Positions 11,228 to 43,700 of a DNA stretch of 64,000 nucleotides are shown one piece after another. The stretch comes from Sanghuangporus weigelae (lineage: Eukaryota; Basidiomycota; Agaricomycetes; Hymenochaetales; Hymenochaetaceae): positions 682,001-746,000 of the forward strand of contig CP137321.1 in NCBI GenBank assembly GCA_033182465.1, in the 5' to 3' direction. The notes under the pieces are model-generated. The model was not told the origin of the DNA, did not search any database, and saw nothing but the letters and a program-made list of their open reading frames with translations. The position numbers and the translations under genes are program-made. Every line of letters starts with the position of its first letter. Positions within the stretch are counted from its first letter, which is position 1.

Positions 11228-13471
11228 GTGACCACACTGTCGCTCGACGTTGCTCACCGCAGCGCTTCACCGATGCTTCGCCACCCTTGGCGCACACTTG
11301 CTGGTTCTGCAGTGCTGGTTGGCTCATCAGCTTATATCTACCGTCGTGTAACTCGTCCAAAGATTGCTCACGAGACGTTTGACATTCGCGCACCAACCGT
11401 CGGTCCTGACGGGAAGCGCACATATACGACGCAAACAATTCGTATTCAGTCTATGCCTGAGATTGAAACGCGCCTAAAAGAGAACGCGGTACTTCGTGCC
11501 TCGTCACGTCCTGGTCATATCATATGGAAACACGCAACTGCTCATTTGGCATCCAACGATCCCATTGAGGATGCCCATGCTGAAGCAATTGTACAGCGAG
11601 ATCGACAAGATGGAGATTATCTTTTCTTTACTGTTATGGATGGACACTCTGGCACGCATACTTCACGACTCCTTTCAAAGACCCTCATACCTGCCATCGC
11701 GCTGCAACTGCGCGAACTCACTACCTCACCTGATTCATTCGACTCTAAAGCTGGAAGAACAAGTTTCTTGGACAGTATCCGGTCTCTCTTTTCATCTGCA
11801 TCTAAATCATCCGGTGCAAACACGATTCCGTATGACGCTGATCCCAAATTCGTTTCTCTCGCAATTCAAACTGCCTTCGCGATGGTCGACTCAGAAATGG
11901 TCAACGCGCCTCTGCGTCTTCTACACGACCACCTCAAAGAAATAGGCGCCAAGGGAAATGAGTCTTTACCGGACCTATCAAAACATCCCATGGCACTCGC
12001 TTCTATGGCTCCAGCTCTTTCCGGTACGTTCTAAGCTACTCTTCGGCCCTTTTTCTATCCAGCCCCTGTTTTGTTCACGCGATGCGTGCGCTTAAGTATT
12101 ATTTGTTTTCTTTCGCGGTATTTTTTAAAGTCGGGTATTGATGATCATATCAAGGCAGCTGTGCCCTTCTAGCATTATTAGACACGGCGCATCGTGACTT
12201 GTACGTCGCATGCACCGGAGACTGCCGCGCAGTTGCGGGCGTTTGGGAAGAAGCGCCCGACGGTTCCGGAAGTGGAACTTGGCGAGTTGACGTTTTAAGT
12301 GATGACCAGACAGGAAGGAATCCAAGCGAGCTGAAACGGTATGTACTGTGTGACCCCTTACTCAAACAGACTCGGAGGTTTATTTGATTTGACGGTGGGA
12401 AAAATTAGACTACAGAGTGAACATCCTAAGGGCGAAGCTTCAACTGTTGTCCAGCGGGGCCGGATTCTTGGTGGACTGGAGCCGTCGCGTGCCTTTGGGG
12501 ATGCACGATACAAGTGGCCGTTACATAGCCAGCAGTTGTAAGTCATTTTTTGTCTTTTTTTACAATACCCTCATTCTTCACTTCGGTCACATTCTTCTCA
12601 AAACTTCATCCTCCTAAAGACTTCCTCTGACTCGCTTTCATCTTCCCACACATTTATGGACATAACTAACATCGTGATACCTCTCGTTCACAGATTAGCA
12701 CGTGTGTATATGGACGGGAACGGCCAAACGATACGACGCCCTCCGCCTGACTTCAAAACACCACCATACGTCACTGCTCAGCCTGTCATCACATACCGAA
12801 AACTCGACTTCCTCCCTCTCTCGGAAGTCCCGCCGATTCAATTCCCTCCGCTCAGCAGTGCTGACGGCATTGTCCCACCTTCCTCATCTCAGCCTTCCAT
12901 GTTTTCTTGGCTAAGGGAGTATGCTCCATTCACGAAAGGAAGTGAGCAGCGTGTGGGAAACGCTACTCCTTCCCCCTCCTCTGAGTCTTCTTCTCCTGTC
13001 CAGACCCCGCAACGACCACCCTCTTCGTCCCTTCGCTTTATCATCCTTGCAACTGACGGTCTCTGGGACCAAATTTCTTCACAAGACGCAGTCGCACTCG
13101 TCGGCGCACACCTCTCCGGACTACGATCTCCTTCTGTTCCTCGTTCAACCTTGAATACATACGCCCCTACACGAGTGGGAGACTCACCTGGCGTTGAGGG
13201 GAAAGCTAACCCACCCACATCCAATAAAGATCAAACCCAGAAGCAGGACGAAGGCCCTGGATGGGCGTTCGTCGACCATCATCCTGGAGTCCACCTCCTC
13301 CGTAACGCTTTCGGCGGGGCGGACACGGACCGACTAAGAAGATTATTAAGTATCCCAGCCGCTTTCTCCAGACGATTTAGAGACGATGTTACTGTGACCG
13401 TTGTATGGTGGGAAGATGGACGTTTGAATGAGGCGAAGACAGAGAATGTTAATCTGAAGGCTAAGTTGTAA
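11228..13471 (+). CDS. PTC5: Mitochondrial-type protein phosphatase 2C with N-terminal membrane anchor (Ptc5-like)
   Basis: A Mg/Mn-dependent Ser/Thr phosphatase. In yeast, Ptc5 acts in mitochondria on the E1 alpha subunit of pyruvate dehydrogenase. Four exons, 11228-12023, 12155-12338, 12409-12537 and 12694-13471, close in phase to 628 residues. Residues about 21-38 (WRTLAGSAVLVGSSAYIY) form a membrane anchor after a basic N-terminus. PP2C motifs run in order: EDAH (114-117), VMDGHSG (136-142), SCALLALLDTAHRDLYVA, CTGDCRAV, GGLEPSRAFGDARYKW, ATDGLWD (489-495) and RDDVTV with the last metal Asp near 600. A Ser/Pro-rich insert (about 440-480) precedes ATDGLWD. All metal-binding Asp residues are present, so it should be active. 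The assignment to Ptc5 over other PP2Cs rests on the anchor and the PDP-like layout. Confidence 0.85.
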
Positions 13472-14009: not shown

Positions 14010-16930
14010 CTAGTACGCAAACTTGTTCCGCGAGCCGAACTGCCTCTTAGGCACTTTTCTCAGACGGAATAACTCCCGTTCTTCATCTTGATCCCGATTT
14101 CGTTCTCGATGTAAGGTATCCCCAATGCGCGACTTCCCAAAGGGATTGCCGCGCCAAGAGGACGTGAACGAAGGAATTGCTGGTTTTGAAGAGTTCTTGC
14201 TCTCCCGACGTTGTATGTCTTTGTCTCCGTCATCACTGTCAGGAGATTTCCGCTTTGATGAAGTGGACCCGTAGAAATTAGATGGCGGGATGGCCACGAC
14301 GGGTGAAGTGACGGGAAGAGGTGACGTCGAAGGAGGTCGCGTCGGTGAAGAGGTCGAGGTCGAGGTTCCATCTTCTTGCACAATCGTTTCACTATTGTCA
14401 ACGCGGTCATCTCGGAGCGGAGATCCGGAGTCCGGTGCAGAAGCCATCGGAGATGAAGACGGGATAATAGATCCTGAGCCACCGCGCATCTCTCCGTTTT
14501 GTGGAGGACCTCCATTGTTCTGAGTCAGTTCGGAATTCTGAGGCCGTCGCTCGACCGGCTCGCCTTGCTCCTCATCGCTTTCATCTTCGTACTCGACGAG
14601 AGGCATTACGGGATGACGAGGTGTTACCTGCTGCATCGGCGTGCCCGTTACTCTCTTTTCTTTCTCTGCGGCTTCGATCTTCCTCTTCAGCATGTCTGAT
14701 TGAGGGTCAGACTTCTGAAGGAGGGGAAGAGGAATAACAGGTCCAATGAAAGGGCGCGCCGTCCTGTTTTCAGGCTCGTCTCTAGTCACGTCTCCGTTCT
14801 CTCGCTCATCATCACTCAGACTCTTCCGTTTCTTGGACGGTATCATACCATTCACAAGTCCGATGTTATTTACCGCCGCTGCAAGCGCCTGGCCCTTGTC
14901 ACGAATGTAAAAGAGCATGTACGCATTCTTCATGTTTAGAGGCTCAGGCTTCCGGGCACGCTCGACCGAATCGTCGTTCATCTCGTACCACTGCCCGTCT
15001 GCACCACGGACATGGGCGAAATAATGCCCCGAGTTCGGTCCTCCTCCCATATGCGAGATGACCCCGTAAAGAGTATACGTCGGGCCGTGTTGGCCCTCAC
15101 TCATCGCAGGTTGGAGGCTTAGTCGTTCGTCGTACCGGACGGGGTGCTGTAATTTGCGCCCCAGCGGTGTGAAGCGCTTCAGATGCACGGTAAGCACCGC
15201 CGGTGCTTCATGTATTGTGAACTGCTTCTCCGCATTCACAGGTCGTTTGCACCTTTGACAAGACCAGGTCAACGCCGCAGAAAAACAGAAGTCGAACGGA
15301 GCACCTACTTCTCGCACTTGTACTTGTCCGCCCCTTTGAGGTAATCCTTAGCAGTGAATTTCTTCAACGCTTCTTTCAGACTAGCCGTGTTGTATATGTC
15401 TATGCTGAGATCCAGTATACTATCAAATGTATCACTGTTGTAGCCACATTGCTGGCAAGTCACTCGCGACCGTAATCGACCACCGAAAATCTTGTGCACC
15501 CAGGTTGTCTCGGCAAGTTTATGGTCTATTTTTCTGTAGGGATATGAGTCGACCTAATATAGTGCAAATAAGGGACACTTACGGTGGATACCCAGCAAGG
15601 CATGATTTCTGTAAAGAGTCTATTGCGTACCGGAGGAATTCGTGCGCATCTTCTTGCCGCCCTCTCCGAAAGTGCTTTGCGATGTCTAGTAAGCCGGCGA
15701 GTTTAGTACCATTTTTTTCATGTTCTTAGAAGCACAAGATACATACAGTTCATGTTCTTAGTGATCGGACTCGGCACAAAAGCCCCGGCTTTCTGGAAAC
15801 TTAACTCCATTACTTGCTTCAACGAACAACTCATGCAGAAGCCGCTCTTCACACGGCCTGTGGACCCAAACGCACAATCAGTCAGCCGTAGCCATGATAT
15901 TAATCAGACACACATACATTCAGAACCCGTATGCATGCGGAGTATCCGAAGTAAGGGAGGAGTATGAAGCAGGCATTGCAAGGCGCTATTCAGGAAACAT
16001 GTATTGCCTGTATTGAATAGGCCCGAGCCCCGATTGTAACCTGAAGGCCAGGTCAAATCTATCGGAGGAGCATGGAGTGATGGGGATGCCTTCTGATCGA
16101 AAACGGCCTTCTTCGCGGGGCCTTGTTTTGTTTTTGTCTGGGACTACACAACAAATAGTTAGCTACCGTCGTTCTCAACGGAACGTATATTTTAAAATAA
16201 AGGAAAAATAGAATCGAATAGAAAAGTCAAATAGCAGATAAAAAACGCGTGAATGCAGGCATTGCAACCAGAGGTGGTCCCTCACCTCATTCAGAGTCTT
16301 CGGCCCCGCCTTTGGTGACGCGTTGATGGGCTCATATCGGCCTTCCAAACTCGCAGCAAACGTGCCCGACGATGACCCTTGAACAAACTCCACAGGTGGA
16401 GGAAGTCGGCTCTTAAACTCCTCGACGTCTTTCGCAGGTTGTACAGAAGCAGGTTCATCGCCCCTCAATACCGACGTCATGAACGCGTCGTTGCTTTCCA
16501 TCAGTGTTGTGTTCTGAGCAGATGAGAACGTGCTTGAGACTGGTAATGATTTTGAGGGAGTAGAGAGTGACACGGGGAGTTCGTCTTTTAGCCTGGGTGA
16601 AAGCGGAGAGGCAGGATGTGGAGGAGAGGAGTATGCGGGTGATGGCGGAGCGTGGCCATGAGCAAAGACACTGTCCATGTTCAACGGCTGTGGGGAGGTT
16701 GCGACGAGCGTAGCCATCTTTTGAGCCAGCTTTTGTACCAGAGAGTAAGATTGTCGTTCTTCTGTAGAGAGACTTCGGTACTGGGCGTCTAGAGCCTGTG
16801 GTTCTTGCCCCTCAAGTCCGCTTCTTTTAGCTGTTGCAAAGGTCCTCTGAGGCCTTCGAGTTCCGCAGAGAGCTCGACGTGATGAGCAGCCTGAAAAGAC
16901 GCGTCGAAGAGACACGGTCAAAGGGGGCAA
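14010..16930 (-). CDS. Ubiquitin carboxyl-terminal hydrolase, USP36/USP42 type
   Basis: Cysteine protease that removes ubiquitin; relatives act in the nucleolus and on histones. The catalytic Cys box is in the exon around 15930-16140: [18 protein letters not shown], then [10 protein letters not shown]. Zinc-finger Cys pairs follow ([10 protein letters not shown] near 15440; YKCEKCKRPVN across the intron around 15245-15310). The His box reads [20 protein letters not shown], followed by DDSVER and AYMLFYIRD. About 290 residues of disordered, basic tail end FGSRNKFAY. The catalytic residues are intact. The N-terminus is the uncertain part: an open frame from 16930 starts [12 protein letters not shown], while an internal Met at 16716 ([16 protein letters not shown]) is equally plausible. 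Several introns are supported, for example GTAGGT to AAAG between the CEK and CKR halves. Confidence 0.85.
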
Positions 16931-17233: not shown

Positions 17234-20154
17234 CTATAGGAAAGGCACACTTTCCATCTCGCCTGTAGCCAATAAGTCGTCGTCAAAACCCTCTTCAGCT
17301 GCTTCTTCCGGATCTTCAGGATCCCCATCGTAATGACCTTCCTCTTCATATTCGCCATGTCGGTCCTCATCCTCGTCACCATAGTTATCCTGGATTTCAT
17401 CCTCCTCGTCAGTCTCGAGATCTGCTAATGAACCGTCCAAAGAGCCAGGCATGCTATCCAAGCTAAGGCGCTTCCTTGCACGCCGCTCTCTGCTAGTCTC
17501 ATCCGTCTCTGTCCTCGAACGCGCAAACCCTCGGCCGCGTTCATCATCAGACCACGCATGTTCAACGAGTGTCTCCGTGCTTCGCGTATGCCGTTTGCTT
17601 AGCCTCTCTAGCGAAGTCATCCGTTCATCCTGCTCCGTTGGCGTTCCCGAGGCCTGGAAGAACGAACTCGTACTCTGACGTAAGCTGAAGTTCCGAAGCC
17701 TGGTGAATGTCGACATCGAAGCGTCTGAATGGGCACTCAAAGCTGGTGATGCTGGAGGAGTTGTAAGATCGGGCAGCGCAAATTCTTGTATTGGTGTCTT
17801 CCAGTAATTCACATCGGAATATTCTGTCTCGGTCTTCTGGTTAACAGGTGGAAACATCTGGTCTACGAGGTCCGTCAGATGGATATACGAGGACTTGTAG
17901 CCAGCAACCTCGAGCAGTTCCATCTTCACTTCGCCAGTCGAGTCGATCGTGAATATTCGCTGACTCGGAATGTTCACGCTACGGTACGACAATGCATCTG
18001 TTATACGGTTACCGAACCCCGCATAGAATGGATTCTTGCCCTCTCCAAATAGCCGCTGGATGTCACGTAGGCACGCCATTTTGAACATCTCGGGCTTGCG
18101 CATAATCACCTCTCGATGAAGCGAGGTCATTAGCCTATCTGGGCTCATGATTACTGGACCCTCGGGTAACTGATAGTTATTCTGGTTGATACTTTTGAGG
18201 TAGTATCTTGTCGAGTCTGCCTGCCCAATAGCACGAGATGTGAGATACAGAATTCTGTACCCATTCCTCGCGATGTCAGTATACAGCTTTGCAACACCAA
18301 GATGAGTCCAGTCTCGTCCAATCATGGTGAAGACGTGGCCAAGAGCATCAGACCTACAAATGGCGTGTAATCAGAATGGTAACAAGATTTAAACTTACAA
18401 GCACTTACTTCGTGATAGTCCCGTCGATGTCAGAGACTACAATCGAGTCTGTTTCTTCCCAGAGGAAAATACTCGCAGTGCAAGCCGTCACACCAGACGC
18501 GGAAAGCGAGAAAGTAATGAGATTCTTCCCTGGCTTCAGGTCCAGTTGTTTCTATCGACATGGCGTTTAAAAGCATACGCCAGGAGATAAGATGTGTAAA
18601 CTCACGAGCTGATCAGAAGTTAGTCGTAATGTCTTCGCGAACCGCTTAACCCTCTCTTCTGATGCCGATCTACTTGTTCTTGTCGACGCATCTCCATTCA
18701 ACTTGGATTCACTCATTGTAGGAAACGAAACAGGCGTATTCCGACCGTCTGACTTTGGGGGAGCAGAACTGGATTGGATGAGCGATGGACGTCTCTGCCG
18801 TTCCTGGATGTCCGAGCTTGGTTGTGCTAGCGGCTTTGCTGAAGTAGGTCGAGGTTGAGGCTGGCCTGGAGCCTCAGACCGACTTGATCTCCACCATCGG
18901 ACCCAAGATGAAGATGACTTCTTCGGTGCAGTAAGTTCCTCTGGCTCCGTTTCGTCAGACGAGGATAAAGGCTCCTCTTCCTCAAGCGCCTTCGCATTCA
19001 CAGGCTTCGCAAGCGCCGCTTCGCGCCATTTGGTAAGGCAGTCGAACAAAACTGACGTATCGTTGCGAGTGATATATTTGTCCTTCCACCTGATAACCAT
19101 GTTCTTGTCTTGCACCACACCAGGATATTTGATGAACCGACGGAACGATACTTGTCCATCACGAAACCGTCGTGCGTCTCGTATTTCGTCGCCGCTGCCT
19201 CCACCTTCACACGCGGCGAGCTCTTCGGAGATGCTGAGCTCAAACTCATAAGTTTTCCCGCATACGGACAGTAGGAAGCGCCTCCCACTCCTTTCATCCG
19301 CGTTTAGCTCGGCACCTTTACCGAAGAAGCCTGGTACGTCACCGACTGGTGAATTTGATAAAAGACGGGATGCATCATTCGTCTTTGAACGTGGAGGGGA
19401 AGAGGGTCGCGGGAAATCCAGCTCGTGCCCGAGCTCGGGTGGAACACTGAGACTACGCTGCGTCTCTAGGGAGTCTATTCCAGTGGGCGGAAATGTGGCC
19501 TTCATCGGCGATGGCGTAGGAAAAGCACCCCACTCCCAGGAATAACTCGGCGGGGAACCATTTGACGTATTCCCGGTTTCTGGTGGCTCAGTAATGATTG
19601 TGCCACTAGTATCTGGGGAGTCGAGATCTAATGGTTCAGGTTCCTGAAGGTCTATGGTTAGATGGAAGCTGCATTTACGGGTGACAATACTACGGGAAAC
19701 TTACATTCTCCGAGTCCAGTGTTCGTGATTCCCTTCTGTCCTCCCCTTCCTCTATCTTTGCACCGAACCTGCCTGCACCAACATGGGCACTGCTTTGATC
19801 GGGACGAGTGGCCTCAAGAAGAGGGCTCGTGATCAAATCCTCCGGTACATCACTGTCTGTCTCAAATACGAAGAATGCCTCGCCAGCGTCGCCAATCTTC
19901 ATATTGAAGGGAATTTCGCGGCCATTGACCATGACCTTCACCTTCTTGTCGACTGGTCGCAGTACCTGCCATTTTCCAAATCTGACGTGGAATGGACTGC
20001 ATGCAAGCTCTTCTTCCGTGCTGCCCTCGGCCCCATCGACTCCTGACACTGTTCGCCGCACGACGATGACATCGATGGCTCCAGTAAGCGTGGAAGGGTT
20101 GATATCTCTATAATACTGCGAAGCTGCATTGAGCGCTCCGCGCAGATAGTTCAT
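17234..20154 (-). CDS. PAH1: Phosphatidate phosphatase (lipin / Pah1)
   Basis: Mg-dependent phosphatidate phosphatase that makes diacylglycerol at the ER/nuclear membrane, controlling the balance of storage fat and phospholipid. Four exons, 19705-20154, 18606-19643, 18409-18551 and 17234-18353, close in phase to 916 residues. The N-terminal N-LIP domain starts MNYLRGALNAASQYYRDINP, including the amphipathic helix, and continues DVIVVRR and PFHVRFGKWQVLRP. The catalytic HAD motif DIDGT is at about 537-541 (VVSDIDGTITKSDALGH). The C-LIP region follows: ILYLTSRAIGQADSTR, PVIMSPDRLMTSLHREV, NPFYAGFGNRITDALSY. The tail is strongly acidic (DLETDEEDEIQD), as in yeast Pah1. Many Ser-Pro sites in the middle region fit control by phosphorylation. 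Upstream lie two CACGTG sites. Confidence 0.95.
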
Positions 20155-27599: not shown

Positions 27600-30500
27600 A
27601 TGCCTGACGGCTCCTACAACGGGTTTGAAACTCTAAAGCGAGAGCAGAGTTTTCGCAACCCTTCAAAGAAAGGTCATTCCGTTCCAATACTCAACGAACT
27701 TGCTGCACCGCACATTGAATCCTTCAATGCGCTGTTCGACGATTCTGGATTGCCTGCAGGTGACAGCGCCGGAACTGGTCTCTTGTCCCTAGTTGTCAAA
27801 GATATCGGGGAGAAAGCTGTGTTTGATTATACTGGACGAGAAGATGAACATGGCAATCGAGGTCTAGGAAATCGCATGAGCTGTACGTAGCTTCAGCTAT
27901 TAAATTTGAACGTGGAATTCATGAGCATTTATAGTTTGGATTGAGCAAGTATCTATCGCGAGACCAATGGTACCTGAGAGAGATAAGCAAGCATTTGAGC
28001 GGAAAGTATTCCCTGCAGAGGTGTGGGCAATAGGTTTTCCTCGTTGCTGAATCTCTCTGATTACCCTTGGCCATCAGGCCCGTGAACGAGTGACTTCGTA
28101 TCGGGCCAGAATGAGCATCAAGCTGTGCTGGAAAGTGCAAGGGAGAGAAGCGAATTCCATGACGAAGGAATGCGGTCTGGTACCCATTATGGTTCGAGTA
28201 CGTCCACATCCTTAATTCTGCGTAACACGTATCAAGTTATAAACATAATTTTTAGTCCATACGTTGCAATCTGCGGAACCTGTCCTCTTCCGAACTCGTA
28301 AAACGACATGAGGAACCCGAGGAATTCGGAGGTTACTTCATAATAAACGGCAACGAACGGCTCATCCGTTATCTCATCGTCCCGCGGAGGCACCATGTCA
28401 CCTCTCTCATTCGACCTTCTTTCCAGAAGCGAGGGCCTTCTTATACTCCCTATGCTGTCCAAATTCGATGTGTCCGCCCAGATCAAACTGCTGTGACAAA
28501 TACTCTGCATTACCTTTCAAACGGGAATGCGATGCTTCGATTTAGCTGGCGGAAACAGGAATATGTTATCCCCGTCATGCTCATCCTAAAGGCATTGGTT
28601 GGAGCTGCGGATAAGGAAGTATTCGAAGGAATTGTCATGCAGGATTATGAAAATACGTTCCTTACAGACCGAGTGGAGCTTTTATTGAGAAGCTTCAAGG
28701 CATACAAGCTCTACACCGGAGATCAATGTTTGGAGTTCTTGGGTGATAAATTCCGCGTCGTACTCGGGCAACCTGAAGACTGGAACAACACGGCACTCGG
28801 AGTCTGGCTCATACGGAAATTTGTCTTGGTTAATCTTGAAGATCCGCGAGACAAATTCAGGATGCTCTTGTACGTCGCGCTAAGCTCGAATAACTTACCT
28901 AGGGCTTCCATGCAACTCTCTTTCTAGGTTCATGTTACGAAAGCTATACTCATCTGTCGATTCTTCGAGCTGTGGAGATAATCCAGACTCTCCGCAGCAT
29001 CAAGAGGTCCTCCTTCCAGGCTTTTTGTATGGTATGATCATGAAAGAACGATTGGAAGAGTGCTTGAATGGCCTTCGTGCTCAGATTTCACAAGACGTCC
29101 GCCGCAATGATCCATCCGTCGACTTCTTTGACGACAGGTATTTCTGCAAGGCTCTGTCTCGAGTGAACTTCGACATCGGTGCAAGGCTGCTTAATTTCCT
29201 TGCGACGGGGAATTTAGTCTCGCCGACGGGCCTTGACTTGCAACAGGCTTCCGGATTTACAATCGTCGCAGAGAAGCTGAATTGGTATCGATATATCAGT
29301 CACTTCAGATGTATTCACCGCGGTGCTTTCTTCGCAGAGTTGAAAACGACTACAGTACGAAAGCTACTCCCAGAAGCTTGGGGTTTCCTCTGTCCCGTAC
29401 ATACGCCTGACGGATCCCCTTGTGGCCTGCTAAATCATCTCTCTCGTTCATGCCGAATCGTCACTGCACCTCTTGCAGTTGCCCACCTCAAGAATCTTCT
29501 CCTTTCACACGGCATGACTTCCGTGCATACACCTTCCATCAATGGCAAATATCATCGTAATATCGCCGTCCAGTTGGATGGACGAATGATCGGATGGGCA
29601 AACCCAGTTCTAGCAAGGCATCTCGCAAATAACCTGCGTGCATGGAAGACGGAAGGCAAGTACAACGTCCCGCTTGACCTAGAAATCGGATTCGTTCCAA
29701 TTTCTCAGGGAGGACAATATCCTGGTCTCTACCTCTTCTCGTCGCGGTCGCGAATGATGCGACCTGTGAAATATATCTCGAACGATCGCGACGATCAGAT
29801 AGGATCGTTTGAACAGGTGTACATGGACATTGCCATCAAACCGGAAGAGATTGAACCCGGTGTGACATCGCATGTCGAGCACTCGCCAACAAACTTCCTT
29901 TCCATCCTAGCAAATCTCACTCCATTCTCGGACTTCAATCAAAGTCCACGTAATATTTACCAATGTCAAGTAAGTACCTAACTCAAGATCAAGATCGCTC
30001 AATTGATTGCATTTTGTACAGATGAGTAAGCAAACGATGGGGACACCTTCCACTGCAATTAAGCATCGGACGGATAACAAATTGTATCGGCTTCAATCTG
30101 GTCAGACGCCAGTTGTACGACCCGCATTACACAGCACATACGCAATGGACTCTTTCCCAAATGGCACCAACGCGGTTGTAGCCGTCATTTCTTACACTGG
30201 TTATGATATGGAGGATGCCATGATCCTCAATAAATCCGCACACGAACGAGGCTTCGCGTATGGTACTGTATATAAGTCACAGACCATTGACCTCAAGGAC
30301 ATGCATGGCGCTTCGAAAAGTACAACCGCACCCACGCTTCACTTCGGGATCGGAAAAGATATTCGGACTAGAGGAGAGAAGGCGCATCCAAGTCTCGTAT
30401 TTCTAGATGTTGACGGTTTGCCGTACGTCGGCATCAGAGTCAAGTCTGGAGATTTTATAGCTGCTTACGTGGATGACACTACGGGACGCACGCGCTTTGT

Positions 30501-31726
30501 CAGATATAAGAATGATGAAGCTGGTTACATCGACGAAGTCCGATTACTTGGTGAATACGACATCTCTTCCCTACATGTTCAATGCTAAATACTCTCTATC
30601 AGGTTCGGATGCGGGTGATTCGGAACTGCAGAAAATCAACATTACGTTCCGAATACCTCGATCACCAGTCATTGGTGATAAGTTCTCCTCTAGACATGGT
30701 CAAAAGGGCGTTTGCTCGCAGAAGTGGCCTATGATAGACATGCCTTTTAGTGAAAGCGGTATTCAACCGGATGTCATCATAAATCCTCATGCCTTTCCTT
30801 CTCGTATGACAATCGGTATGCTTGTCGAGAGTATGGCCGGCAAGGCAGGAGCAATGCATGGAATCGCACAGGACGCCACTCCCTTCAAGTATGTATTCTT
30901 TCAACAGCTATTCACGAATTATTCTGACCTATATATGTCAAAGATTTTCAGAAGATGACACAGCAGTCAACTACTTCGGAGAACAACTCCTCGCTGCAGG
31001 CTACAATTATTACGGAAACGAGCCAATGTACTCCGGAATAACCGGCGAAGAGTTCGCAGCAGACATTTACCTCGGAGTTGTGTATTATCAGCGTCTACGA
31101 CACATGGTATTGGACAAGTTCCAAGTGCGGACGACTGGACCTGTCGACCCGATAACGCAGCAACCAGTCAAGGTATCAATACTTCAACAAGATGTTCGTC
31201 TCTTTCTGGACTTTCTAACCCCGCTTCTCTCTCTTCTTTCTAGGGACGTAAACGCGCAGGAGGCATCCGATTCGGCGAGATGGAACGCGACGCGCTCATC
31301 GCTCACGGGACGTCCTTCTTGCTGCAAGATCGACTTATGAACTGTTCAGATTACTCATTAGCTTGGGTCTGCAGGACGTGTGGCAGTCTCATATCCTTAG
31401 GGTACGATGACGTCTCGCTCGGAAGTGACGGTCTTCGCGCTGGCTCATCCCAACCCAATGGTGAATACTGCCGGATATGCCGTGCAGCTTCGGAAGAGCG
31501 CGATGAACGGGAACGAGCAGCGCTTGCAAATGGTCAGGAGGGACCGGATAGGGGTGTAGTCAGCGGGATTCAGGCCAGTATCCGCGTCGCTCTTCCAAGA
31601 ACGAACGTCCTTGGAGGCGTCAAAAGTGGTGGTGACCTTGACGTGGTCGCAGTGCCATTCGTCTTCCGGTACCTCTGTGCCGAACTGGCTTCGATGGGCA
31701 TTGCAGTAGCACTGGAGGTGCGATGA
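27600..31726 (+). CDS. RPA135: DNA-directed RNA polymerase I subunit RPA2 (A135)
   Basis: Second-largest subunit of RNA polymerase I, which forms half of the active site and transcribes rRNA genes. The start at 27600 is [18 protein letters not shown]. Beta-subunit landmarks run in order: [124 protein letters not shown] and [20 protein letters not shown]. The C-terminal zinc ribbon is CRTCGSLIS...YCRICRA. The end is ALEVR at 31726. Seven or more short introns interrupt the frame, for example near 27883, 28027, 28200, 28883, 29973, 30585, 30890 and 31175. GYDMEDA and HAFPSRMT are universal polymerase signatures; the N-terminal and zinc-ribbon details point to Pol I. Confidence 0.95.
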
Positions 31727-32091: not shown

Positions 32092-35000
32092 CTAAGCCTC
32101 AGCAAGAACTACTTGCGCCGTATGATCAGTCGGCACAGGCTTACGGTGACTTATCGTTCCAGAATGGCGTTCCTCAGATCGCGGGGTAGGTGGTGCACCT
32201 GACTCTCGCGCACTAGCACCCCTCGTTACCTTGACCTCGTCTTTCTGAGGAGCTTCGCTATGGCCCAGAAGCACCTCCACAACTGCGGATTCCTGCTGAG
32301 CAGTCGGGAGTAACTTCGGATCGGGAGAGAAATCGGTGTCCTTCATCGGCAAGCCTGCCTGAGCGAGGAACATATCAATAAGAAGACGGCATTCATCTGC
32401 GGTCGAAGCGTTGGCCATTAGGCGGCGCAAATCTGTGGCATTAGCCGCAAATGCCTTCGGTGTGGAAGGAGGAGACAAAGCGTGGCGTTGTGGTTGCTTC
32501 GACGAGGGATGTATCGAAGGATAAGATGGAGGGGGAGTATGCAAGTTGTCAGACGGCTTTGGTCCTGTGGGAGTGACAAGAGTAGGGGTAACGGAGGAAT
32601 TTGTTGTAGTCGACATCCTGCCTTCATCAATTTCCTTCACCTGTTGCGCTTTCAGCATCGGGTTTTCATTCTCGACCTTGGAAGGCGTGGGAGGTGAAAC
32701 ATCAGCCGATCTCGATACATTGAGCCTGATGTTGCCATTTTCTTGCTGAACACCTTCAGATTCCGAGAACGCTGGTACAGCCTTTCTCAAGGTTGTGGGA
32801 GATGGCCTCGGCCGAACCGGGGATGCGGCGTCGCCAAAGGAGTGACTTGGTGAAAGAGGGGGAGACAGAGGGATCGTAACGGGAGGTACAGGCGGAGTTG
32901 GACCCTTCCCCAGCGAGATTTGACTCTGGGCGAAGGATGATAGGCTATGGAGCGACCTCTTAGCCGACAATGGCGGCGGGACGAAGGCTGGCGGTGGGTG
33001 CAGAGGAGACTTCCTGGCTACCGAAAAGTCCTCGAAGGAAGCCTGGTTCTGCAATTTGTCCATCGATTGACCGCCTTTCAGGCGCGAGACAATACTACGA
33101 AGCCGGCCTCGTTTCATCTTATTATCGAGAGAGGATGATGTTGTCGGTGTGGGTGACATGGCTTTGGGCAGATCGGGAGGACCGCTGTTGAGAAAGTCGA
33201 TCAAATCAGCTGTCTGTGAGGAAACACCTCCGACAGTCGGTGCTCTGCGTCTAGTTGCTGGCTTCTTCACTGGTCCGTCATCATCCGAATCCAGATCAAC
33301 ATCAATGGAATCGTGGCTGGCGGTCTGATGTACCCTATTCCCTGAGTACGTATGGCTAGACATTGATGCAGGCATCTTCGAATGTTGACTGGTCGGCCCA
33401 ACGCCTCTGAGGGACTGCGAGTGAACTGACTCGACAGGCAAAGTACCCAATGAGCCCTTCCGAGAGCCAGCGTGATGGTTCCCAAACGATGTCACAGACG
33501 ACTGTGAAGCGGATGTAGACCGAGTTCTTGAATGAGGCGGCTGTTCGTAAGACACCGGAGGGGCCCCTTTTGATGGTTTGTGCATTCGCACACTATTGAA
33601 GTCCTCTCCAGCTCCATTGTCCTTCATCTCCTGATCCTGGGCAACTTGCCTTTGCGCAAAGCCAGAACTGTTCTTTGGCGTTTGTAATGGAGACACGTCC
33701 GTGATACGATTGGTAACGGAGCTATCCTGGAGAGGCTCCTTTCTGGACGGTTGCTGAGGAGGTATAACCACCTTGCTTATTCCCCGCCCCTTCTCCTTGC
33801 TGTACACCTGGACGAAGCATTTCACTTAGAAAGCAACATTTTGGGGATAGAAGCTAAACTCACATCAAAAGTTCTGAGGCGGTCGGGTGTGAGGGATACC
33901 TTCATGGTGGTACCAGACCGCATCAGCTCGTCAAACTCGACCTTGGGCATTTTATAAGATACAAATCAGTAGATCAGAACCTTAAGAAGGGCGTACCTCG
34001 CTTGGGCTAGAACCCGGGCCATCATCTAAAGTAGAGTTCGGCCGCTTTCCATTGCTGATAATGGATGCTGAACGCTTATGTCCGCTCTCATGGCCGGCTT
34101 GCGAGCTGACGTCCTTATCAACGCTCATCCGTCCAAACAGTTTCTTAGTCTTCGACTTCTCTGTCGAGCTACGGGCACCAGATGACGGTAGGGTGGCAAC
34201 GGCGGTGCCAGAGCCTGCGCTGTCAGAGGAGACACGCGGTTTTGCAGCCGAATCACCGTTAAGCGTTGAGTTAGATCCTTGTGGGGTGCCATTCGCGTGA
34301 GATGTCCCCTTCACGGTCCCACTTGGACTATGGCGTATCGACCTACTTCGGCCCGGACGGTTCACCGGTGTATTGCACTGAGATTCAATCTGGTTGTGAA
34401 CTTTTCATCGGAAATTTTCAGCCAAGTGAGGAAATGTTTCCGTGTCAGAATGTAAATGTGTCGCCTTGACAACCGAAATTGTGTAGAAGACCGACCTTTC
34501 ATAATCTTGAATAGGCCATATATGGCATCATCTTCGCACAGTGCTAGGAATAAATCTTGCAAAGTCGCAGTTGACCGGCTGCTGTCTCGAGACGCGACAC
34601 GTCCCGTATTCGATAGAACATGCCTGAAAGAATGCTAAGACACCGTGATATGAGACCACTGTCAGACTCACTCGCACACGTGTCTAATAAACAGAGGTCA
34701 GTTGAGCTCCTGATGCAAGTGAATGAATGCACACGTACTCGACAATGGCCGTCAAATAGAGGGCAGCGGGGGCTATGTACTGTACATTATGCGCCGCGAA
34801 CCCGCTGGTACTCGTGACTTTTGTTTGCCACCGCTTCTCACCGTCCGTATCATCATCAGAGTCGTTAAATGTAGAGTATGCTTCACACTTTAGTCGCAAT
34901 AGCTGAATTGTAACGAGGTGGCAACGGTCAAAAGTGAGCGATATATAGCATGGCGAATGAGTTCTCACCTCGAAAGCAGGCTGTATGGGAAATTCTTGAG

Positions 35001-35367
35001 AATTCTCGGTGTACGATCGTGACGGGGCGTTTGTAGTGCGGTCCCAATAGGCTCTTAGCTCCACCTCCGCCTCGAGTAGAGCCTCCTTACCAAGAGAAGT
35101 GGGTAAAAGCTTACTCCAAGCGGCTTTTAGTTGGTCGGTGGCGAACGAGCGTGCCATGCTAAGAATCATCCACAGAAGTTCGTCAAGCAAGACGTTGACT
35201 GAGCGCAAGGCATCCGGGGAGAGTCTCGTGGGGCGTATCTCGGACAGAACGACGTCCGCAGAGCGTGGAGACAGATACAGGGGAGCTGTAGGTATTTTTG
35301 TCGTGTCAGAAAAACCGGCAGAAGTGTGGCTGATAACAGTCTCACAACGATCAGAAAGACCTGCCAT
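32092..35367 (-). CDS. Protein with two histone-fold-like segments (H2B-like then H2A-like) and a long disordered tail
   Basis: The start at 35367 is MAGLSDRCETVIS. Residues about 49-109 resemble an H2B fold: LSPDALRSVNVLLDELL aligns with the first part, and LLPTSLGKEALLEAEVELRAY matches the H2B helix LLPGELAKHAVSEG...KY in spacing. After a roughly 50-residue acidic linker, residues about 162-221 resemble H2A: APAALYLTAIVEHVCEHVL, then ASRDSSR and LQDLFLALCEDDAIYGLF. This compares with H2A YLAAVLEYL...ARDNKK...LAIRNDEEL. The H2A-like part is built from several exons, including a 12-base exon at 34672-34683. A tail of more than 700 Ser/Pro/Lys-rich residues follows, including EFDELMRSG and MKVSLTPDRLRTFD. 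The role is unknown; chromatin or TAF-like binding is inferred. Confidence 0.7.
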
Positions 35368-39154: not shown

Positions 39155-40280
39155 CTAAGAAGGAACTCGAGCCTGAGCTGCGCCTGGCACAGTAGCAGAT
39201 ATCGGTGGCTTAGGCATGAGAGCACTCGCAAGTAGGTCCTTGCAATTCCGCAATCGTTCGCGTCGCGATATGAACCAAGTCCCTGTGTCATAAGACACGG
39301 CCAGAGGGACTCCTATGACTCCTGCTGCCTCCGCGTTACGGACTGCCTTGACCATTGCATCAAGTTCTGCTTCCGAATCTACATCATCCATGTTCTCATC
39401 TTCAAAGTCTTCTTCAGCAACGGTTAGCATAGGCGCTGCAGCTGTCGCAGTTTTCTTCCCCTTCTTGACTGTTCCGCCAGACGCTTGCTTGGTCGCGGCA
39501 TTCACTGCTGCCTGTTCCACCGCTAGCCGCTTCTTCTCCGCCTTTTCCTTCTCCTTCTTCTCCTTGCGCTCCGCCTTTGATTGACGCTTCACCGGCTCTA
39601 CATAATTGGGATTTCGCTCCCTGTTGAAGTCATTCAACAACTCGTCATAATTCTTCGACCGTCCTTGGACGGCGCGCTTCGCTCCCATAGAATGGCTTTT
39701 GCAGGTGAGAGCTCTAGAACACGGCAGCCCTTTGTCATTTATGACACCGCATTGCCTGTCGAGATCCACTGGGCCTTTGAAACGGCCCTTCGTGATTTTA
39801 GTTGCGGGCTTTTTCTTCTTTGTACCACTCTCGTTTTCTAGGGCATCCTCATTGTCAGCTTTTCGTTTATTTCCCTTCTTGTCTAACCACGTTCAAAAAC
39901 GAGGTTTCAGCCACTGAAGATACGTACTTACCGTCGAGTTTGGCGCCCTTCTTACCACCGGCGCGTATTGTTCGACACCGATCTACCAGAACATTACCAA
40001 TCGCCATCTCTGTGAGATATGGAAATGCTAACACACCGACATGTTCCGCAAACGCGCTCTTCTGAACTGCTTTACCACATTCCCTACATCTGACTACAGC
40101 AAATTCCGGCCTCAGCGGCTCTGCGCCAAATATCTTCATTTGCTTCGCGTCAAGCCATAGTGTTGGCGGAGACGGCGGTGGCTCGGAAGGAGAAGAGACC
40201 GAGGGAGACGCAGGGAGATTGTCCCATGAAAAAGGAGCACCAGGCGAGGACGGGCTGTCTGGTCGTAGCTTCAGACTCAT
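39155..40280 (-). CDS. SGF73: SAGA complex subunit Sgf73 (ataxin-7/SCA7 domain)
   Basis: Subunit that anchors the histone-deubiquitinating module to the SAGA coactivator. Two exons, 39932-40280 and 39155-39882, close in phase to 358 residues. The N-terminal part has a zinc-finger-like segment [20 protein letters not shown], matching the Sgf73 N-terminal finger that enters the deubiquitinase module. The middle holds the SCA7 domain: [20 protein letters not shown], then [17 protein letters not shown]. That gives the Cys/His pattern C-x9-C-x5-C-x2-H. A Lys/Glu-rich helix ([14 protein letters not shown]) follows. The end is rich in Ala/Pro, ending ARVPS. Known family members carry both elements in this order, so the call is firm. 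Length is shorter than yeast Sgf73 (657 residues). Confidence 0.9.
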
Positions 40281-40722: not shown

Positions 40723-43700
40723 TCAACCATTTCCGTCATCTTTCGAGTCACTTTTTGACAAAGCCGGGGAAGTAGCGGTAGGTTTTTGCTGTCCCGAATT
40801 CTTCGAAACGGTAATCTTCACTCGAAGCTTCCTCGGTGCTGGACCCTTCCCTTGATTCTCATCACCAGCTTTGCCTGCATTCGCTTCTTCTGTAGCAACA
40901 GCACGCACCATGGCGGCAGCAGCCTTGGAAGCTTCCTCTGAAGCATTACTGAGTCGTCGATTCTTGGGAGCTAACCTCTCAAACGCGTCATCCTCCTCGT
41001 CTCCACGACGACGCTTCTCCGCCAGCTTCGCAGGTGGAGGTTTTGGAGCAAGGGATGGTTGTTCGTCAGACCCTTTAGAGACTAAGGACTCGAGTAATTC
41101 GTCTTCTGGATCCGAAGGTTCGTCTTGCGAAGGGTCGTAAGGAAGAATTTGAATCTGCCGGTGCGGGAGGACAGGACTCTGAGGTGTAGAAGGATCCTTC
41201 TCTGATCGAATCTGCTCGGACAACGGACTAGTTGCATCGTCATCGTCATCGTACTCTAGTAACGATGATAACGGTGAGACAGGCCGATTCTGTGACGGCA
41301 CGCTCATTAACCGCTGTGCCTTGCTCATCTGAGCATGAGGACCAGGAGCACTGATACGCTGCCGTTTGCGTCGGAATAGACCGAGGAACGAGTCGACTCG
41401 AGGAACCGGGACAACAGGATCGTCTTCGTTCTCGTCGCTGTTGAAGTACGAATCGTCCTCTTCTGATTCCATGACACGTTGGCCGAAGATTCGAGGTGGA
41501 ACAATAATCCTGAATGGTATGATAGATGAGTCAGAGTGTCAGTGATGTAACCAAAAATACGTACGATGGTCTCTTCTCGACTTCTGGGGGAGGCGGTTCC
41601 TTGTTGATCTCCCATCGCGAAATGAAGTTCTGGAAGGTAGCGAAGCCTTTGGCCGCTTTCGCCAGCTCCCGAATTTCAGCTTCATGCTTATCCATGATAT
41701 ACGCAATAGGATCTCTAAGATTCTCCTAAAAGCGTATTAGCATCAGCAATCAAATGGAGGCATTAAAGTGTAGCTCACCTTTCGTATAAACTCAAAGAAC
41801 TCTTGACATGTTGAACTAAGTAAGTTTTCTCGCCGCGCCTCGCGGATAGTCAGTTTGCATATAGGAGTAAAGACTTCATGCTTTTGCATATGCATAAAAA
41901 GATTGCGGTTGTTCATCTTGAGACATATTCGAAAAAATCGGAGTGCGGCTATTGTTGGAGAGCAAGCACGCTGTGAATCGATGCAAATGGAAGCAGGACG
42001 GCCACTTACCGAGGCACAGATGCTTGTCTTTGACACTTAATAAAGAAGCAATGCGGGAAACAACATTGGACGTGATGACGAAGAAATAGCTCCGAAATGA
42101 ATGCTGGATGGCAAAGCTACAGAGAAGATCACACAAATAAAGATAGACGTTGCCTCGCTCCCGGGAAGGCGTGAAAGGTGTATCTAGAAGGTGTTTGCTA
42201 CTCAACCTAGACTATATCAGTGATAAGGTTTATTACTTACTTTTTAGCTCGTGGTGATCAGGAACGTCGTGAGTCAGTGGTCGCATTAATGTTTCTATGC
42301 AAACTTTGTAAAAGTTGTCCAAGAACCGCTCAGTGTTGATTTCATCCCGTATTGGTCGGTTGAGATATGCGTTTGGAACTGATCCTGCACCGGGTTGGCC
42401 CTGAATCTGACATACGACACAGCTTTAACTGTCCACTAGGGGGGAGATATGCCGTTAGTACATACCTGAGGAGTTTCCGGTGGTGGAGGCACGGGTGGCT
42501 CAGGCGGTGTATCGACAAGTAACCTAAGCGCATCAGCTATTTGCGTCTGCACAGCAAGATCCTGGCTATTCGCCATCATGCGACATAAGGCCTGAGCAAG
42601 CGTTTCCTTGAACGGAGGAGGGCCGCCGTTCGTCACGTCAGGTATCTTCGCATGTTCTTGACTAATGCCAGCATCAGTGGCATTCGTGGGCTGACCTATT
42701 GCTACTGCCTGCGTCAAGACGTGATTCCGAACACTCTGAGAGTGATGATCCAATAAGACCGATAGGATTTCACCGGCGGTGGAGACCATATGCTTCTCTG
42801 GTCTGCATAAAGCCCATTGCACAGAATAGAGTACCCCACGTTCGACGAGAGTACGGAAGAGCGCTATCCGCGCAGGAAGCTGGACATTCTTGCCCATTAC
42901 GCTTAGTTGTTGGAGAAGTGCGATGATCTCCTTCTTGCGCTCGACATCGGCATTGTCATCGACATGATTTGCCTGAGAAGATAAAGGACCGGGAGAAGAG
43001 GAGACGGCACCGTTCACCGTAGGTGAACTTCCAGAAGGCTTATCTACTTCCATGTCCCCTCTCTTCTCCTTCTCCTTCTCCTTCTCCTTCTCCTTCTCCT
43101 TCTCCTTCTCCTTCTCCTTCTCTTTACCTTTCACGCCCACAGGCCGAATAAAGTAAGACACAAGTTCCGCAAGGAAGTGCTCGTCTCGCTGAATATGGTT
43201 AATGATATCGATCTGATTGAAGATGATGCACGAGTTGAGCACGCTGAAGGTCGAATCATCAAGCGCGCGGCCCAGGATGACGTCTTTGAGATACTGCAAT
43301 CGATACGTAGCATGTATCTTCCGTTGAATTTCCTCGTTCTTTATGACGATAGGTTGCATGAATTGCGATCGTTGTTGAAGGAATTCGCGGTAGTTCGCCT
43401 TGAACTTAGGAAATTCTGGATCGTCTGGATCCGCATATCAGATGAGAAAATGAAGCCAAAAAGAAAAGAAGACCTACATTCAAGCATCCCAACAACGCCC
43501 ATCCAAAGGTCGTCGAGCAGAATATGCTCATACATGCTGTGTTCGTTGAGAAGCACTGCCGCGAGAAATAATTAGTAAATCTACGTTACGAGCAATCTTG
43601 TCAAAAAGAGACTTACAGATGGTCTGCATGCAACTACACAGTGCGTGTAACGCATCCAGATTCTCGGCCTTCTCAGCAGCGTCGAATGCGGCCACCAGCT

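Follow-up and report, generated by a model that had tools for sequence, protein, structure and literature searches.

A candidate N-terminal H2B-H2A pseudodimer of the Sos H type in a long, largely disordered protein of Sanghuangporus weigelae

The locus and its gene model

The window analysed is a stretch of 64,000 nucleotides of Sanghuangporus weigelae (GCA_033182465.1, contig CP137321.1, positions 682,001 to 746,000 of the forward strand), and all coordinates refer to it. One gene, read from ATG to stop, occupies 32092-35367 on the reverse strand; the interval named in a preliminary description of this DNA runs between the start codon and the stop codon of a seven-exon model, whose spliced reading frame of 966 residues has no internal stop. 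The six introns are all short (48-95 nt). The splice model places the parts of the gene as follows:

32092..35367, reverse strand: whole coding region, seven exons, 966 residues
34969..35367, reverse strand: exon 1, residues 1-133
34902-34739, reverse strand: exon 2
34683-34672, reverse strand: exon 3, 12 nt; this micro-exon (34672..34683, HVCE) completes alpha2 of the H2A half (histone score and donors)
34623-34496, reverse strand: exon 4
34400-33997, reverse strand: exon 5
33941-33864, reverse strand: exon 6
33807-32092, reverse strand: exon 7

By histone score, this model (125) ranks second of the 315 stop-free splice models of the micro-exon region, between the first (136) and the best one lacking the micro-exon (115). 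The top two each contain a tiny exon and give proteins of equal length; the second was chosen on the strength of its donor sites, GTACGT and GTGAGT. The four residues of the micro-exon make up roughly one turn of helix in the second histone fold. As the frame is kept when this exon is skipped, it could act as an alternative-splicing switch, as predicted from the genomic sequence.

Concerning the other genes of the window, pieces of the second-largest subunit of RNA polymerase I (Rpa2/RPA135) lie at 28932-30588 on the forward strand, convergent with the fused-histone gene. The Rpa2 piece scores higher with the PDB chains 7aoc (487.5 bits) and 4c2m (454.3) than with 7ob9 (307.5), which we take to be those of S. 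pombe, S. cerevisiae and human, respectively; this fits a fungal host. A PP4R3 (phosphatase 4 regulatory subunit 3) domain is found at 42436-43359 (reverse); the ORF bearing it has no match in PDB at E<=0.001, and ten perfect copies of CTTCTC lie within it (43063-43122). A SCA7 zinc-binding domain, presumably as in the SAGA subunit Sgf73, is present at 39155-39769 (reverse). Pieces of a Lipin/Ned1/Smp2 gene with LNS2 and Lipin_mid (17234-19505, reverse), a PP2C piece (12656-13471, forward) and a piece of a ubiquitin carboxyl-terminal hydrolase (14010-15317, reverse) are also found. No second double histone fold elsewhere in the 64-kb window lies above the inclusion threshold.

Two histone-like halves in one chain

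The preliminary description had proposed an H2B-like fold followed by an H2A-like fold in a single polypeptide, and this order is borne out by matched halves in the PDB, shuffle and profile comparisons. The motifs on which it was based are present: the H2B-type one, LLPTSLGKEALLEAEVELRAY, in exon 1 and the H2A-type one, APAALYLTAIVE...VASRDSSR...LQDLFLALCEDD, in exons 2-4. Both halves stand, but their limits do not: 49-109 and 162-221 are revised to 36-112 and to 126-139 plus 178-233. The features of the domain are:

35032..35262, reverse strand: H2B-like half, residues 36-112, with alpha1, alpha2, short L2, alpha3 and alphaC (local scores, profile match)
34885..34992, reverse strand: H2A-like alpha1, residues 126-139 (FPIQPAFELLRLKC), interrupted by intron 1 (aligned to H2A)
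34792..34881, reverse strand: acidic loop inserted into L1 of the H2A-like half, about residues 141-170, with DSDDDTD (gaps against SOS1; disorder)
34500..34770, reverse strand: H2A-like alpha2-L2-alpha3, residues 178-233, exons 2-4 (PDB matches to H2A; shuffles)

Each half was aligned locally to a panel of ten sequences (H2A, H2B, H3, H4, NF-YB, NF-YC, TAF12, POLE3 and the N and C halves of SOS1), with shuffles that preserve composition and not helix periodicity. The first half exceeds all 1000 shuffles only with H2B (score 47) and the SOS1 N half (48), and the second only with H2A (61) and the SOS1 C half (65). An earlier run of 2000 shuffles gave 1 and 3 as high for the first half against H2B and the SOS1 N half, respectively. 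All other comparisons of the first half, including those with H2A and the SOS1 C half, remain at Z <=2.0, and the next panel members for the second half are NF-YC (Z 2.5) and H2B (Z 2.0). In a first run the second half had scored 44 against full-length H2B (Z 4.4, 4 of 2000 shuffles as high); once the N-terminal tail of H2B is removed the score drops to 33, which 51 of 1000 shuffles reach. Two stretches of the tail, used as controls with the same panel, give Z <=0.6.

The same comparisons bear on the suggestion, made in the preliminary description, that the protein may be a relative of the TAF, NC2 or NF-Y families. These too are histone folds; however, TAF12, NF-YB, NF-YC and POLE3 stay at Z <=2.5 with either half, that is, in all eight comparisons, and no Pfam family of this type matches. 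A TAF or NF-Y identity is rejected on these grounds, and we regard the whole class, NC2 included, as very improbable.

In searches of PDB, residues 1-334 have 75 matches at E<=10 (best E 0.0068), and among the 60 listed, 59 are H2A or H2B-H2A chains and one is SOS1. The second half alone has 193 matches (best E 0.0074), and the 60 listed are all H2A-bearing chains. Residues 1-242 reversed give one match, to an unrelated chain, the forward search having used residues 1-334. The alpha1 of the H2A half, FPIQPAFELLR, aligns with FPVGRVHRLLR of H2A. Between alpha1 and alpha2 about 30 residues, some of them acidic, are inserted according to the gaps against SOS1, and the block 121-180, which spans this insertion, scores as disordered on the charge-hydropathy plot.

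Pfam assigns no histone to either intact half; the H2A half without its loop insertion reaches 12 bits with Pfam Histone (E 0.25), under the cut-off of 26.4. NCBIfam has no match to the protein. A Pfam match to Kiwellin-1 at residues 234-308 (E 0.06) is also under the cut-off and was taken as spurious. A two-sequence profile of the protein and SOS1, on the other hand, matches both halves: the H2B-H2A fusion 7ybf scores 62.4 bits, with separate domains for the H2B half (28.9 bits, i-E 6.9e-6) and the H2A half (32.0 bits). The reversed protein with SOS1, as a single decoy, gives 28.3 bits to 7ybf in one stretch (chain residues 85-161), and its best fusion, 6k0c, scores 32.2 bits, with 3.4 bits in the H2B part. 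SOS1 alone scores 39.3 bits against 7ybf, a value from phmmer which, coming from a different program setting, serves as a guide only. When aligned by MAFFT, the protein is 28% identical to SOS1, and its reversal 21%. Chance or composition is an unlikely source of the likeness, given the shuffles, the reversed query and the reversed profile (one decoy). The chain carries tandem histone-fold sequences, one of the marks of a double histone fold (DHF).

The H2B-like half is the fainter of the two, and it could be asked whether the histone fold is confined to the H2A-like half, with the first 120 residues forming another helical bundle. Residues 1-120 alone have no match in PDB at E<=10, and the sole significant BLASTP piece against SOS1 lies in the H2A half. 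The predicted structures of exon 1 are weak as well: pLDDT is 50.1 for residues 1-133 and 65.6 for residues 28-133, with pTM of 0.28 and 0.33, respectively. In the low-confidence model of residues 28-133 the helices (34-41, 51-87 and 91-112) fit the positions of alpha1, alpha2-to-alpha3 and alphaC, but alpha2 and alpha3 are merged and the expected L2 break is absent; Foldseek with the exon 1 model, itself weak, returned no histone among two matches (best E 1.2). Against this reading, none of 1000 shuffles equals the H2B or SOS1 N half score whereas H3, H4, NF-YB, NF-YC, TAF12 and POLE3 are unmatched, the two-sequence profile detects the H2B half, and the order and spacing are those of Sos. Nor is a faint H2B half unusual, because SOS1, a solved double fold, behaves likewise: its own N half reaches Z 5.5 against H2B, and among the 60 listed of its 210 PDB matches the best stretches in histones begin no earlier than residue 67. 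We therefore hold a lone H2A-type fold to be improbable. The two halves of the double fold likely form a self-contained dimer, by analogy with the known ones, in which they would most likely be packed together by a histone handshake.

Comparison with Sos and other double histone folds

Sos is the classic activator of Ras. We know of no explanation for the origin of the histone pseudodimer at its front. According to two papers, the order of the Sos H domain is H2B-like, then H2A-like (PMC13088155; PMC1866393), and human SOS1 (PDB 1q9c, 3ksy) has the same N-terminal order in one chain as the protein described here. The two halves can be aligned with SOS1 one after the other, in the sequence expected of H domains of the Sos family. 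The preliminary description had set the protein apart from the canonical separate histones; the fusion is confirmed, but its kind is already known, as the two folds follow each other in this order in the Sos H domain too (PMC13088155).

Based on the sequences compared, the closest natural double fold appears to be the Sos H domain, among the matches listed and with ABTB2 considered by description only. Sos is preferred through a shared deletion and not by score, since the scores are nearly equal (48 vs 47 for the first half; 65 vs 61 for the second). H2B residues are missing at overlapping sites at the end of alpha2 and in L2 (nine here, ten in SOS1), and at this deletion the protein and SOS1 align together with single-residue gaps. 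An independent loss of the L2 residues in SOS1 and in the fungal protein is possible. Both domains are acidic overall (pI 5.9 for SOS1 1-185 vs 5.0 here). There are also differences: the DH, PH, REM and Cdc25 (RasGEF) domains of Sos have no Pfam match in the 966 residues (E<=1), an acidic segment is inserted here into L1 of the H2A half, the basic linker KRKRR of SOS1 is missing, and the protein continues into a tail of 721 residues.

Other double folds were compared partly by description. ABTB2/Cca3 has H2B-like and H2A-like folds within a larger eukaryotic protein, as described in PMC13088155, but its ankyrin repeats and BTB domain have no Pfam match here (E<=1). SPT3 has two histone folds per chain and occurs in fungi, by the same account (PMC13088155). 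Families of the SPT3 type have no Pfam match in the protein at E<=1 or E<=10, yet Pfam misses the histone likeness too. The folds of SPT3 are of the TAF13/TAF11 type. The histone doublets of Marseillevirus, again by description, are fused folds of the H2A/H2B type; unlike what is proposed here, they package DNA according to the same source (PMC13088155). The nucleosomal H2A-H2B dimer shares the order and positions of the helices, FP(I/V) at alpha1 and YLxAxxE in alpha2, whereas the domain here is fused and acidic and has lost DNA contacts and the L2 of H2B.

A fungal version of this known fold looks new, because Table 1 of a 2026 review gives SPT3 as the sole fungal double histone fold (PMC13088155). 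Among the matches listed from open-licence papers, we found no fungal double fold of the Sos type. Relatives of exon 1 were not found in viral contigs, prokaryote genomes or plasmids, nor relatives of exon 7 in viral contigs or prokaryote genomes; this says little, as these collections are not intended for fungal genomes. Fungal databases, we presume, may well hold orthologues annotated 'histone-fold'.

Charge, tail and probable role

The domain has a pI of 5.0 and the tail one of 9.8. The net charge is -2 for the first half and -7 for the second (-4 without the insertion), while the H2A half of SOS1 has +2. We compared the residues R29, R42 and R77 of H2A and those of L2 of H2B, which we take to be histone DNA contacts: R29 is replaced by P and R77 by T, R42 is unaligned, and H2B positions 83, 85-88 and 90 fall in the gap. 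The DNA-contact residues of alpha1, L1 and L2 that mark a core histone are not found here. At the eight positions which we assume to make up the histone acidic patch, four retain an acid (E56, D90, E91 as D, and H2B E113). The features of the tail are:

32095..34368, reverse strand: basic tail from residue 246 to residue 966, with many S, P and T residues and 23 S/T-P sites (composition)
33244..33267, reverse strand: KKPATRRR, a basic cluster preceded by an acidic run and a possible nuclear localisation signal (sequence)

The disordered tail of more than 700 residues reported earlier is present, with 721 residues that are mostly disordered by composition: between residues 241 and 960, ten of the twelve sixty-residue blocks are classed as disordered by their charge and hydropathy, the exceptions being 661-720 and 841-900.

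Our preferred reading, with a probability of roughly 60%, is that of an N-terminal H2B-H2A pseudodimer of the Sos H type on a long, mostly disordered protein, which lacks histone-type DNA binding and serves as a docking module. Judged by its sequence, the pseudodimer would no longer bind DNA in the manner of histones; we read it as a docking module and not as part of a nucleosome because it is acidic and no longer has the residues by which histones touch DNA. Its ligand would most likely be a partner protein or its own basic tail, and the tail, with its S/T-P sites, may recruit further partners under the control of kinases. Docking is the most likely role by analogy with the regulatory, protein-binding Sos H domain: the Sos double fold no longer has electrostatics suited to nucleic acids and functions in autoinhibition and protein contacts (PMC13088155), and the histone-like fold belongs to the regulatory portion of Sos (PMC3118925). 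Docking to protein is favoured over binding of DNA or lipid, as the DNA contacts are lost, the domain is acidic and KRKRR is missing.

The preliminary description had also considered a fungal chromatin factor, and this retains some plausibility, weakened by the lost DNA-contact residues and the acidity of the domain. The protein would then be a nuclear pseudodimer, as proposed for ABTB2/Cca3, which binds DNA or mimics H2A-H2B for chaperones or remodellers. Its nearest folds are indeed H2A and H2B, half of the acidic-patch positions are still acidic, and KKPATRRR resembles a nuclear signal; yet R29 and R77 of H2A and the L2 contacts of H2B are gone, the pI is 5.0, and no H2A docking domain was seen, since the H2A alignments stop at alpha3. 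Overall we judge a role in chromatin or transcription rather unlikely. Recruitment to membranes through PIP2 or phosphatidic acid has a precedent, in that the Sos domain is the best natural double-fold match among the matches listed and its histone fold is reported to mediate interaction with PIP2 or PA (PMC3762125). SOS1 1-185 is itself acidic, so that an acidic pI is not in itself enough to dismiss lipid binding, but the missing counterpart of KRKRR and the charge of the H2A half against +2 in SOS1 make such a function quite unlikely.

Returning to the docking module, a more tentative proposal, which we put below even odds, concerns its ancestry: the fungal protein and the Sos H domain may share a fused H2B-H2A ancestor which predates the split of fungi and animals, with fungi retaining it as an independent docking domain borne by a disordered scaffold, and the animal lineage later joining it to a RasGEF. 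If true, this would explain where the Sos histone domain came from and define a new class of histone-fold proteins in fungi. A fungal relative without RasGEF would suggest that the module was once a protein-binding unit by itself, and would lengthen the short list of double histone folds by one family.

Two further stretches of the tail, at about 587-604 (TADLIDFLNSGPP) and at 846-875 (TDLRRLMANASTADECRLLIDMFLAQAG), are motif-like and appear amphipathic or helical by eye in a moment scan; both may be binding motifs.
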